Notes under the pieces: generated by a model | Told to the model about the DNA's origin: nothing | The model's database searches: none | The model's input: the letters and a program-made list of their open reading frames with translations, nothing else | Shown here: positions 10,041 to 13,810 of the stretch, piece after piece | Numbering within the stretch: position 1 is the first letter of the stretch | How the letters are laid out: the number at the start of each line of letters is the position of its first letter | Origin: Candidatus Saccharimonadota bacterium | Lineage (GTDB): Bacteria; Patescibacteriota; Saccharimonadia; Saccharimonadales; Saccharimonadaceae | Length of the DNA stretch: 57,887 bases | Direction: 5' to 3' | Assembly: GCA_017447485.1 (NCBI GenBank) | Contig: JAFSNI010000009.1 | Location: 1-57,887, forward strand | Program-made: the position numbers and the translations under genes

Positions 10041-10478
10041 CTAGTTCGGCAAGAGCAAAAACGCCACCGTCCCCGCCGCCGCCCCTAGGATAATCGTGAT
10101 GATAATCGCCACCACCATCCCCATTTTCGAGTCTTTTTCCGGCTTGTTGATAATCGTCACCGGCTTCGACGGCTTTTCGGCTACCTCTGGTACTACTACC
10201 TTTTTCGGGTACACATTCTTCGACAGCGGCCGCTTCGTCACTTTCTCCGTATTTACAAACCGCGCCTTCGGCACTTCAAACGCCCCCACATTAGCTCTTT
10301 TTGCACTACTAGTATTCGTCACACCAGCCCGCGCTCGCTCGCGCTTCATCTCAAACATCTCACTGATTTCCAGCTCGCTCACCTCTTTACGCGCACCAGT
10401 AGCAACCTTCTTCTTGGCTGGCTTGGCTGGCGCCAGCTTCGGTGTCACCGGCACGAAATCCATGTATTTTTTATTCAT
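10041..10478 (-). CDS. Tail-anchored membrane protein of unknown function
   Basis: The 145-residue protein is a basic, Lys/Ala/Pro/Val-rich and probably unstructured cytoplasmic region followed by a single C-terminal membrane segment (about residues 121-142, MGMVVAIIITIILGAAAGTV) with almost nothing after it. This is the layout of a tail-anchored protein. It overlaps the tpiA stop codon by four bases (ATGA), so it is translated from the tpiA message. The family is unknown to me, and its link to glycolysis may be only positional. Confidence 0.7.
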   Translation of the reverse strand: MNKKYMDFVPVTPKLAPAKPAKKKVATGARKEVSELEISEMFEMKRERARAGVTNTSSAKRANVGAFEVPKARFVNTEKVTKRPLSKNVYPKKVVVPEVAEKPSKPVTIINKPEKDSKMGMVVAIIITIILGAAAGTVAFLLLPN

Positions 10479-11245
10479 GATCTCACTCTCTTTGCTATCT
10501 CCAGTATATCAGCAAATTCACTCAAAATCAAGCTCGCCCCGCCAATAAGCAAACCATTAACTCCCGGCACCGTCAAATACGCCCCTGCGTTCGACGGGTT
10601 CACGCTCCCACCGAAAAGCACCGGCATATTTTCCGCCACTTTTTCGCCATAAATCTCTTCCAAGGTCTTCCGAATCAGTTTCACCACTTCAGCCACCTCG
10701 TCCGGCGACGCAATTTTCGCGTTTTTCCCGCTTGAAATCGCCCACACCGGTTCATATGCAATCAAAACCTTGTCAATATCTTCTTCCGACACATCCCGAA
10801 GACCCCCGAGCAGCTGGTCCCGAATCACATCCGCCGTCTCCCCAAACGACCGCTCACTTTCTGTCTCCCCAATGCACAAAATCGGCGTAATCTTATTTCG
10901 CACCGCCGCTTCCATCTTTTTCGCCACCATTTTATCATCTTCGCCAAAGATATACCGCCGCTCCGAATGCCCAATAATACAATAATCCACCACGCCTCGA
11001 AGTTGCGAAAACGACGTCTCTCCCGTAAAAGCCCCATAATCTCGATAAAACGCATTTTGTGCCGCGAGCTTCATCTTGTGCCGGTCAATTTGCAAAGAAA
11101 GCGGCTGCAAAGCAATCGTACTTGGCGCCACTACTACCTCAACATCCCTATAATTCGGCAACTTTTTCTGCAATTTATGGAGATAGATCGAGGCCTCGCC
11201 CACATTAAAGTTTAACTTCCAGTTACCCACGATAAAAGTTTTCAT
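10475..11245 (-). CDS. tpiA: Triosephosphate isomerase
   Basis: This 256-residue cytoplasmic enzyme interconverts dihydroxyacetone phosphate and glyceraldehyde 3-phosphate. The family signatures are all present: GNWKLN near the start (catalytic Lys at residue 11), GHSERR near residue 93 (catalytic His), AYEPVWAI near residue 163 (catalytic Glu followed by the flexible loop) and GGSVNPSNA near residue 212 (phosphate binding). Length is normal. The start codon lies within a 20-base palindrome shared with the divergent HAD gene and six bases from its -10 box, so the mRNA is probably leaderless. The neighbouring aldolase fusion makes its substrates. Confidence 0.97.
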   Translation of the reverse strand: MKTFIVGNWKLNFNVGEASIYLHKLQKKLPNYRDVEVVVAPSTIALQPLSLQIDRHKMKLAAQNAFYRDYGAFTGETSFSQLRGVVDYCIIGHSERRYIFGEDDKMVAKKMEAAVRNKITPILCIGETESERSFGETADVIRDQLLGGLRDVSEEDIDKVLIAYEPVWAISSGKNAKIASPDEVAEVVKLIRKTLEEIYGEKVAENMPVLFGGSVNPSNAGAYLTVPGVNGLLIGGASLILSEFADILEIAKRVRS

Positions 11246-11262
11246 GATATAATTATATCATG
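11243..11262. promoter_or_regulatory. Palindromic divergent promoter
   Basis: The 20 bases CATGATATAATTATATCATG are a perfect palindrome. They contain an extended -10 (TGATATAAT) on each strand, the two TATAAT boxes overlapping by two bases, and each strand's ATG ends the palindrome. Each -10 is six bases from its own start codon. No good -35 is visible on either side. Confidence 0.85.
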
Positions 11263-12018
11263 AAAAAAGTTTTAGCATTCGATATTGACCAAACTTTAAA
11301 CGTGGCCAAAACGCCAATCACCGATGACATCGCCGATTTACTCGTCAAATGTCTCGACCATTTCGAAATTTGTCCGATTTCCGGCCAAAAATTCGACCAA
11401 TTTTTAATTCAAATTGTCGATCGGCTCAAAAACCCAACTCCAGAACAACTAAAGCACCTCCATCTTTTCGTCGCCCAAGGCACTCAGTATTACCGCTATA
11501 ACGGCGAAAAATGGGAACAAGTTTATAATTACCCTCTGACCGACGAACAAGTCGCGAAAATTAGTCAAACCATTGAACAAGCTGCGAAAGAGCTCGGTTT
11601 CTGGGAGGAGGATAAATTGCAACCTGGCGATGAGATCATTGAAAATCGCCTTTCCCAAGTCACCTTCTCCGCCCTCGGTCAAAAGGCCGGTACCGAAGCC
11701 AAATACGCCTGGGATCCAGATTGCAAAAAGCGTGAAAAAATCGTCGCCCGTTGTAAAGAACTTGCTCCTGAATTCGACTACGAAATTGGCGGCACAACCT
11801 CAATTAATGCTATCACTCCTGGGATGAATAAAGTTTTCGGTATGACCCATCTTCTTGAAGAATTAAACGTCAAAAAAGAAGATATCCTCTATTTCGGCGA
11901 CATGACCCAACCTGGCGGCAATGACTATCCAGTCGTAAAGATGGGCATCGACACTATCACCGTCCGCAACCACGAAGACACCGCCTACGCCTTGCGTGGC
12001 ATCCTCGGTGTGCTATAA
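11260..12018 (+). CDS. HAD-family phosphatase, phosphomannomutase-like
   Basis: The 252-residue protein belongs to the HAD superfamily with a type IIB cap. The nucleophile motif is DIDQTLN at residues 8-14 (first Asp nucleophile, second Asp acid/base), and FGDMTQPGGNDYP near residue 214 carries the metal-binding Asp residues. A stretch near residue 132 (LSQVTFSALGQKA, then WDPD) closely resembles the eukaryotic phosphomannomutase family and related archaeal/bacterial HAD enzymes. It may therefore act on hexose phosphates, as a mutase or phosphatase; sequence alone does not decide. It is divergent from tpiA and shares its palindromic promoter; the aldolase fusion follows after a 7-base gap. 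The leaderless-type spacing of six bases supports this ATG. Confidence 0.8.
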   Translation: MKKVLAFDIDQTLNVAKTPITDDIADLLVKCLDHFEICPISGQKFDQFLIQIVDRLKNPTPEQLKHLHLFVAQGTQYYRYNGEKWEQVYNYPLTDEQVAKISQTIEQAAKELGFWEEDKLQPGDEIIENRLSQVTFSALGQKAGTEAKYAWDPDCKKREKIVARCKELAPEFDYEIGGTTSINAITPGMNKVFGMTHLLEELNVKKEDILYFGDMTQPGGNDYPVVKMGIDTITVRNHEDTAYALRGILGVL

Positions 12019-12019
12019 T
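11992..12019 (+). promoter_or_regulatory. Promoter of the aldolase fusion gene
   Basis: TTGCGT at 11992-11997, a 16-base spacer and TATAAT at 12014-12019 preceded by TGC. It lies inside the end of the HAD gene, with six bases to the ATG at 12026, so it gives a leaderless transcript and fixes the start codon. Confidence 0.75.
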
Positions 12020-12025
12020 ATACTT

Positions 12026-13810
12026 ATGATTTTAATCGTGGGCAATATCTTAAAAGACGTATACTTGAGCCTCGACTCTCGTACCGAACCTTTTGAAACC
12101 GACAAAAACGGCACCAAGTGGCTCGATTTTAGTTTTGACACCAGCAGCCATCACTATTTTTACCGCAATAGTAGCTTCGGTGGCGCCGCCGTTTCCCTCG
12201 AAGTCTTCAAAAACCTCGGCCTTGAAGCCGAAATCTGCGCTTCTGATTTTACTTTTGATGAAACCGGCCCTTCCCGCACTCTCGCCTCCGAATATCGCTA
12301 TATCCTTACTTCTGAGGACAGCGTCAGTTATTTAGTCCCCACCGTCCCAGTTAATACCGCTTTTACACCACCAGTCTCCGAGCCCAACTACCTTTACATT
12401 GACCGCTCTGCCCATCTCTCTAGAGCCACTGCCGAAAACATTACAGCCTATCTCTCGTCACACCCTGAAGTCAAGTTAATTTTATATCTCAAAAACGTCG
12501 CCAATTTTCCTCACTCAAACCTCATCGACCTCGCAGAGCTTATTCTTTCTGAAGATTCTTCAGCGAATTTAGATTACGATCGCACCGTCTTTATTTCTGA
12601 CCGCAATCTTTCCTACAAAAACATTGTCGAGCCAATTTCCATTGAGCGCATCGACAAACTCACTCACCTATCAGCTTATTCCATCGCTGCCGCCACTATC
12701 ATTGGAAAATTTTTGCTCGGCGAAACCGTTGAAAATTCGCTCAAAATGGCCCGTCTCAACGTTGAAAACTCCAACCTTGATTCCACACTAACCCTTCATG
12801 AACTAGACGCTCTGCAAAAATCCGGTGGCGACGAAAGTTTAGAGCTTATCGCGGCTACCTTAATGGCATCAAAAAAAGGCATTCTCGCCGCCGACGAATC
12901 TGGTGGTTCCATCAAAAAGAAATTCGAACAACTAAACATCCCTGACACCTTCGAAAATCGCCACGATTATCGCAACATTTTCTTCACGACCAACAATATT
13001 GAAAATTATCTAAACGGAGTCATTCTTTTCGACGAAACCGCCCGCGATTCTATGGACACCGGCGAAGGGATTCCAGATTTTCTCATTAGCAAATGCATTA
13101 TGCCCGGCATTAAAGTTGACCGAGGTCTCGAAAACTTCCCAGATTCCGACGAAACTTTTACTAAAGGACTAGAAGATTTGCCCAAACGCCTCCGCGAATA
13201 TCGCGAAATGGGGCTTCGCTTCGCTAAATGGCGCGCCGCTTTCAATCTCGACCCCCTCAAGTCTATTCCTTCCGACCACGCCATTTCCGAAAATTGTCGC
13301 ATTCTGGCTGAATATGCCCTTGACTGCCAGTATGCTGGCCTTGTGCCAATCGTCGAACCGGAAGTTGTTTATGATGGCGATTATTCCATCGACGAAAACG
13401 CTGCCGCTACTGGAAAAATTCTCGACCGACTGGTTGAAGAACTCAAAAACTATGGCGTCAATCTCTCGGCCTGCATCATTAAATGTAATATGGTCCTAGC
13501 CGGTAAGAGATACCACACCAAGTCCACTCCAGAAGAAGTCGGTCGTGCCACCGCTGAGGTCTTGAAGTCTCACGTACCCAAAGAAATCGCCGGCATCGTC
13601 TTCCTCTCTGGCGGCCAAACCCCTGAACAAGCCACCGAAAATCTCGCCAAAATTATTAAAAACGGCCCGTTTCCGTGGCCACTCACCTTCAGTTTTGCCC
13701 GCGCCCTTCAAGACCCTGCCCTCTACGCCTGGTCCGGCAACGACAACAACCTCGAAAAAGCCCGCCAAGCTTTTCTTGACAGGCTTATCGCAAATACTAA
13801 AGTATTATAA
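12026..13810 (+). CDS. PfkB-like domain fused to class I fructose-bisphosphate aldolase
   Basis: The 594-residue protein has two parts. Residues about 1-265 follow the ribokinase/PfkB fold: GNILKD at the start, GGAAVSLEVFKNLGL near residue 51, and a C-terminal helix region. The GAGD motif that carries the catalytic Asp in PfkB kinases is replaced by a sequence around LSAYSIAA (near residue 218), so kinase activity is doubtful. Residues about 270-594 are a class I aldolase: ADES near residue 288, FAKWR near residue 394, the Schiff-base Lys in IIKCNMV near residue 487, and LSGGQTPEQA near residue 527. It should cleave fructose 1,6-bisphosphate in the cytoplasm; the extra domain may bind a sugar phosphate or nucleotide and regulate it. 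The start is set by the promoter at 12014-12019; a longer frame from 11996 would place the -10 box inside the coding region. Confidence 0.9.
   Translation: MILIVGNILKDVYLSLDSRTEPFETDKNGTKWLDFSFDTSSHHYFYRNSSFGGAAVSLEVFKNLGLEAEICASDFTFDETGPSRTLASEYRYILTSEDSVSYLVPTVPVNTAFTPPVSEPNYLYIDRSAHLSRATAENITAYLSSHPEVKLILYLKNVANFPHSNLIDLAELILSEDSSANLDYDRTVFISDRNLSYKNIVEPISIERIDKLTHLSAYSIAAATIIGKFLLGETVENSLKMARLNVENSNLDSTLTLHELDALQKSGGDESLELIAATLMASKKGILAADESGGSIKKKFEQLNIPDTFENRHDYRNIFFTTNNIENYLNGVILFDETARDSMDTGEGIPDFLISKCIMPGIKVDRGLENFPDSDETFTKGLEDLPKRLREYREMGLRFAKWRAAFNLDPLKSIPSDHAISENCRILAEYALDCQYAGLVPIVEPEVVYDGDYSIDENAAATGKILDRLVEELKNYGVNLSACIIKCNMVLAGKRYHTKSTPEEVGRATAEVLKSHVPKEIAGIVFLSGGQTPEQATENLAKIIKNGPFPWPLTFSFARALQDPALYAWSGNDNNLEKARQAFLDRLIANTKVL

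Follow-up and report, generated by a model that had tools for sequence, protein, structure and literature searches.

A probable bidirectional leaderless promoter within a palindrome between tpiA and a HAD-superfamily gene in Nanosyncoccus-like Saccharibacteria

In Gram-positive bacteria, extended -10 promoters of the TRTGn type can replace the -35 box. Promoters that serve both strands, as described by Warman, Grainger and colleagues, have overlapping -10 elements on opposite strands, produce divergent RNAs and are bound by polymerase in one direction at a time. The divergent start sites of these bidirectional promoters are 7-25 bp apart, and separations of 18, 10, and 23 bp are preferred in E. 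coli (PMC12825309, PMC10268837, with reference to Nat Microbiol 2021). The basal activity of five tested E. coli bidirectional promoters was too weak for competition, which was detected once one side was strongly activated (PMC12825309). Leaderless genes of the TA-led type carry the -10 hexamer some 10-12 bp upstream of their start codon (PMC3160421; for mycobacteria, PMC3898074), and in some low-GC genomes they also have an extended TG (PMC3160421; PMC3898074). Single leaderless genes are treated in PMC3160421, and the word "divergent" is absent from its text. In Mycobacterium tuberculosis, the promoters of the divergent genes lysG and lysE overlap, one of the transcripts is leaderless, and there is an inverted repeat at the centre; this repeat is a suggested regulator binding site, and binding of LysG to the intergenic region was demonstrated (PMC5648196). 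Bidirectional promoters and leaderless TA-led genes are already known, and the compact leaderless bidirectional variant appears to be new. The open-access literature, which is weak evidence in this respect, yielded no report of an interlocked leaderless pair with start codons as promoter parts and no description of gap quantisation, and no work was found there on start sites or leaderless bidirectional pairs in Saccharibacteria.

The window (the whole stretch of DNA that was analysed, 57,887 nucleotides) belongs to a tiny, parasitic gut bacterium of a genus of Nanosyncoccus-like Saccharibacteria, which includes Candidatus Nanosyncoccus alces and most relatives of which come from ruminant gut samples. 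Two divergent genes are considered here: tpiA, encoding a triosephosphate isomerase of 256 aa on the minus strand (10475-11245; Pfam TIM, PF00121, 8.5e-77), and a HAD-superfamily phosphomannomutase-like gene of 252 aa on the plus strand (11260-12018; PMM, PF03332, 8.9e-11; Hydrolase_3, PF08282, 7.1e-8). A perfect palindrome of 20 bases had been placed at 11243-11262 by the preliminary description, with no intergenic space between the two genes. The 20-mer CATGATATAATTATATCATG is present exactly there, and no second match with up to three mismatches was found anywhere in the window (0.01 expected from shuffles), but the perfect symmetry extends over 28 bp rather than 20 (11239-11266, TTTTCATGATATAATTATATCATGAAAA), and 14 bp separate the two start codons (11246-11259). 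No Shine-Dalgarno motif was found in this gap. The next longest perfect palindrome in the window is only 14 bp. At the given base composition, the chance expectation for the window is about 0.045 perfect palindromes of 20 bp and 0.00016 of 28 bp, and these values become 0.5 and 0.005 at an assumed A+T content of 75%.

Both strands at the palindrome read TGATATAAT, then six bases, and then ATGAAA. On the plus strand, the extended -10 of the HAD gene (11245-11253) is composed of TG at 11245-11246 and TATAAT at 11248-11253, and the start codon ATG follows after six bases at 11260-11262. On the minus strand, the mirror image is found: the extended -10 of tpiA (11252-11260) has its TG at 11260-11259 and its TATAAT at 11257-11252, and the ATG lies six bases further on at 11245-11243. 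Read in complement, the tpiA start codon constitutes bases -17 to -15 of the HAD promoter, and the base with which the HAD start codon opens doubles as the T of the TG in the tpiA promoter. The overlapping extended -10 boxes with an ATG on both strands, which had already been pointed out, were recovered, and the same geometry was found genome-wide, at other gene pairs and in relatives; the overlap of the hexamers themselves is limited to 2 bp. The shared -10 of a bacterial bidirectional promoter is thus present as TATAATTATA, in which positions 11252-11253 are common to both hexamers, and these two bases are retained in the relatives with a 14-nt tpiA/HAD gap. Both predicted directions of transcription lead into conserved ORFs. 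From the genus-wide -10 spacing, the start sites are predicted at 11245 for tpiA and at 11260 for the HAD gene, 15 bp apart.

This predicted separation falls inside the range of 7-25 bp that defines bidirectional promoters, but is not among the separations preferred in E. coli (18, 10, and 23 bp). The palindrome also differs from those promoters in that both -10 boxes are perfect consensus sequences with two bases in common and no -35 consensus, both predicted starts are start codons and hence leaderless, and the start codons supply promoter bases. As in the TA-led genes, a -10 hexamer at such a distance marks leaderless genes, but in the present case two such genes face each other in an interlocked arrangement, with a spacing that hardly departs from 6 nt. 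The genus consensus YATG at -17 to -14 resembles the TRTG element of the Gram-positive promoters, except that, where the gap is 14 nt, the element coincides with the complement of the opposite gene's start codon. In lysG-lysE the gap is 108 bp, and only one lysE promoter is leaderless (PMC5648196).

Taken as a whole, the tpiA/HAD palindrome is very probably a minimal bidirectional leaderless promoter, and the reading of its parts as promoter and start codon is well supported. On either strand, the A of the downstream ATG would be the first base transcribed by RNA polymerase. With exactly 14 nt between the start codons, the two modules would interlock through the last two bases of their hexamers, and each start codon, as CAT plus G on the other strand, would contribute positions -17 to -14 of the extended -10 to the promoter opposite it. 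Polymerase could bind these interlocked elements in one orientation or the other, but never in both at once, and the products would be two non-overlapping mRNAs, each with its AUG at the 5' end and presumably subject to leaderless initiation of translation. The sequences show the geometry, its recurrence and conservation, its restriction to the genus and its convergent origin; from the arrangement of the elements we infer transcription from both sides, the start sites and the leaderless mode of translation. Mutual exclusion of the polymerases is expected on steric grounds: the melted regions overlap, as do the footprints, and simultaneous engagement of both promoters would thus be excluded. 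The basal activity of the tested E. coli bidirectional promoters was too low for polymerase competition (PMC12825309), and therefore the exclusion may have little effect.

The module from which the palindrome is built is widespread in the genus. In 361 kb of the window's genome (323 ORFs), the spacing between a -10-like hexamer and ATG shows a sharp peak at 6 nt near gene starts (73 vs. 10 at internal ATGs), and the spacing found at the palindrome, which places the -10 for a start at the start codon, is this genome-wide peak. A 1.15-Mb sample drawn from seven genomes of the genus contains 223 TATAAT-N6-ATG sites. ORFs of at least 60 aa begin at 202 of them (91%), compared with 23% for ATGs in general. 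The 190 best sites, which open at least 100 aa, carry YATG at -17 to -14 and a pyrimidine at -1; TGn is present in 154 of them, a Shine-Dalgarno motif in none, and no -35 consensus was found among them beyond a weak T/A richness, the best matches to TTGACA being barely above shuffled sequence. The spacing from the extended -10 to the ATG is 6, 7, 8, and 9 nt in 154, 42, 18, and 13 cases, respectively, and neither GTG nor TTG is among the common +1 triplets with an extended -10. Over whole genomes, TGNTATAATN6ATG occurs 36-106 times (mean about 77) in each of 36 members of the genus; the corresponding range for 24 other families of the order is 1-13 (mean 6). Judged from these sequences, YATGnTATAAT-N6-ATG is the strict leaderless module of the genus and has no recognisable -35 box. 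Exact transcription start sites can thereby be predicted for many genes in a group for which no start-site map was found in the literature, and the annotation of start codons in genomes of the genus would improve. The same module is also seen downstream of the HAD gene on the plus strand (12014-12028), where a predicted leaderless promoter with TATAAT at 12014-12019 overlaps the HAD stop codon (12016-12018) and is followed by ATG 12026; for this next gene, which ends in a class-I aldolase domain, ATG 12026 is a better start than GTG 11996 (window 11996-12028).

The rigidity of the module restricts the spacing of divergent genes. By computation, TGnTATAAT-N6-ATG can be placed on both strands without conflict only at gaps of 0-3, 14, and at least 30 nt. 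At a gap of 14, the hexamers have AT in common, and one start codon, which reads CAT in complement, forms with the following G the extended -10 of the other promoter. At a gap of 30, the two TG elements have a central CATG in common, and all nine gap-30 sites, although retrieved with an unspecified centre, carry CATG there. A gap of 14 was found in 14 of 18 exact-leaderless divergent pairs within 80 nt, a share that is overstated because some of the contigs in the sample were picked for containing matches. The chances are about even that the rigid leaderless module quantises divergent gene spacing (0-3, 14, and at least 30 nt) and that the repeated collapse of pairs onto the interlocking 14 nt, with each start codon part of the opposite promoter, represents a genome-wide class of two-way promoters whose use is obligately either/or. 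The two-way promoter provides a concrete geometric rule by which, in ultra-small bacteria, the grammar of promoters is tied to leaderless translation and to the spacing of genes.

The dual module itself recurs at several gene pairs. The pattern CATNNTATAATTATANNATG has 27 sites in the 36 genomes of the genus and none in the 24 other families, and its reversed control gave no match. A stricter pattern matched 20 of 393 genomes of the order, of which 19 are in the genus and one outside, and outside the genus it was found in none of 380 genomes of the phylum. On these genome sequences, the 14-nt dual module is confined almost only to the Nanosyncoccus-like genus. In the window's genome it lies between tpiA and the HAD gene, ung and tdk, murC and tsaE, and spoU and a glutaredoxin gene, and the identical 20-mer is present at the second of these pairs (ung/tdk, C9:27474-27493). 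Wider forms are found between dnaG and an unknown gene and between lexA-like and LytR-like genes. In relatives, the dual module was also found between galE and a glycosyltransferase gene, between the genes for glycyl-tRNA synthetase and an ABC transporter, and between smpB and a glycosyltransferase gene. The names of the partners in relatives are presumed from the sequence, as are murC, prfA (see below), dnaG, and LytR-like.

A near copy of the palindrome was observed between a prfA-like gene and tRNA-Val (G000 C5:13160-13265, locus L072), and a shared promoter can therefore serve a protein gene and a tRNA. At the lexA-like/LytR-like site (G000 C17:26538-26558, locus L070), a 105-aa protein whose sole match is a LexA DNA-binding domain has the TATAATTATA core in common with the LytR-like gene, and similar 17/18-base forms are present in several relatives. 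A phage or mobile origin of the pattern was considered and rejected: the ten matches in viral contigs look like chance matches, none of them opening ORFs of at least 30 codons both ways.

Those viral matches do indicate that chance occurrences exist, and the odds of a palindrome are raised in A+T-rich intergenic DNA. It is nevertheless highly improbable that the tpiA/HAD palindrome is such an accident, with one real promoter and one fortuitous one, since conserved genes open at both of its start codons, 21 of 24 pattern-bearing loci in the genus have ORFs on both sides, the reversed control gave no match, and the gap-14 geometry was retained or regained across species. Even less probable, to an extreme degree, is a role as cruciform, RNA hairpin, terminator or repeat element. 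The inverted repeat is perfect and the same 20-mer stands at a second site, but neither predicted transcript contains the whole palindrome because both begin near its ends, a G+C-rich stem is lacking, and the copies differ where promoter and start codon impose nothing.

The orthologous loci in relatives provide further evidence on the two-way promoter. The HAD gene was located at 93 loci, and in 60 of these tpiA is divergent within 212 nt. The gaps of the 60 pairs are 14 (8), 16 (1), 30 (12), 33 (21), 35 (4), 36-51 (9), and 94-212 nt (5), so that 51 are at least 30 nt. The tpiA side reads TGnTATAAT-N6-ATG in all 60. At the eight 14-nt loci, the HAD hexamer is TATAAT in three and a one-base variant (TACAAT, TATCAT, or TATTAT) in five, the change always being outside the two shared bases; one side thus often departs from the symmetry, and the two directions therefore need not be equal. 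Conservation of the palindrome among other Saccharibacteria, proposed earlier as a check, holds for the 14-nt geometry, which is kept in some, but the palindrome is intact in only one scanned relative (L082/G004), the rest having imperfect symmetry or gaps of at least 30 nt. At murC/tsaE the gap is 14 in 13 of 15 divergent orthologous pairs, and the perfect core is lost on one side in five. The short-gap state requires at least six changes on the tree of both genes (tpiA and HAD), and a single clade was rejected (AU p 9e-6). The 14-nt state at tpiA/HAD thus appears to have arisen several times independently, and recombination could contribute to the tree conflict. In more distant members of the genus a divergent tpiA is absent, and tpiA often follows the HAD gene with a Shine-Dalgarno motif.

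These comparisons also bear on the proposal that a dimeric transcription factor co-regulates both genes with the palindrome as its operator. The dyad symmetry is perfect over 28 bp and an identical 20-mer is found at another gene pair, but such a function is very unlikely. The recurring sites have only the promoter bases in common, their n positions vary freely and their flanks are unrelated; the gene pairs are without common function; relatives lose the symmetry on one side, yet each promoter is kept (tpiA/HAD, murC/tsaE); and promoter plus start codon account for every base save the n pair and the Lys codons. Dyad symmetry was not conserved apart from the promoter elements, perfect 20-bp symmetry being found at just two of the eight gap-14 tpiA/HAD loci. 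The symmetry arises because two identical promoter modules face each other, and the palindrome is a by-product of these facing modules, not conserved for its own sake and with no sign of a regulator.

Somewhat less remote, although still unlikely, is that selection maintains the two-way promoter as a regulatory switch by which tpiA and the HAD gene are expressed in a mutually exclusive or balanced way, the modes of expression that the preliminary description had suggested. Both promoters should not be occupied simultaneously, the same geometry evolved several times at this pair, and in E. coli one direction can be repressed, and noise reduced, when the other is activated (PMC12825309). However, most relatives keep the divergent pair with gaps of at least 30 nt and separate -10 boxes, the partners elsewhere are unrelated housekeeping genes, and genome compaction together with the rigid module accounts for the geometry without a regulatory role. 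With or without such a role, the bidirectional leaderless promoter offers natural replicates, that is, the same housekeeping pair across species with interlocked (14 nt) or separate (at least 30 nt) promoters, and the effect of polymerase exclusion on expression and noise is therefore directly testable.

Two minor observations were made at the HAD gene of relatives. An ATT triplet occupies the predicted +1 to +3 positions directly before the HAD ATG; it is kept in 20 of 21 gap-33 species and was seen at L084, L085, L088, and other loci with gaps of 33, 35, 44, or 51 nt. The triplet may represent either a leader of 3 nt or a leaderless AUU start codon, and an ATT start of the HAD gene as a genus-wide rule was rejected, as just 2-3 cases were present in 1.15 Mb. 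At L115, the 14-nt partner of the HAD gene resembles the aldolase-domain gene (start MNILIVGN), which replaces tpiA, and the promoter geometry therefore persists despite a different neighbour.
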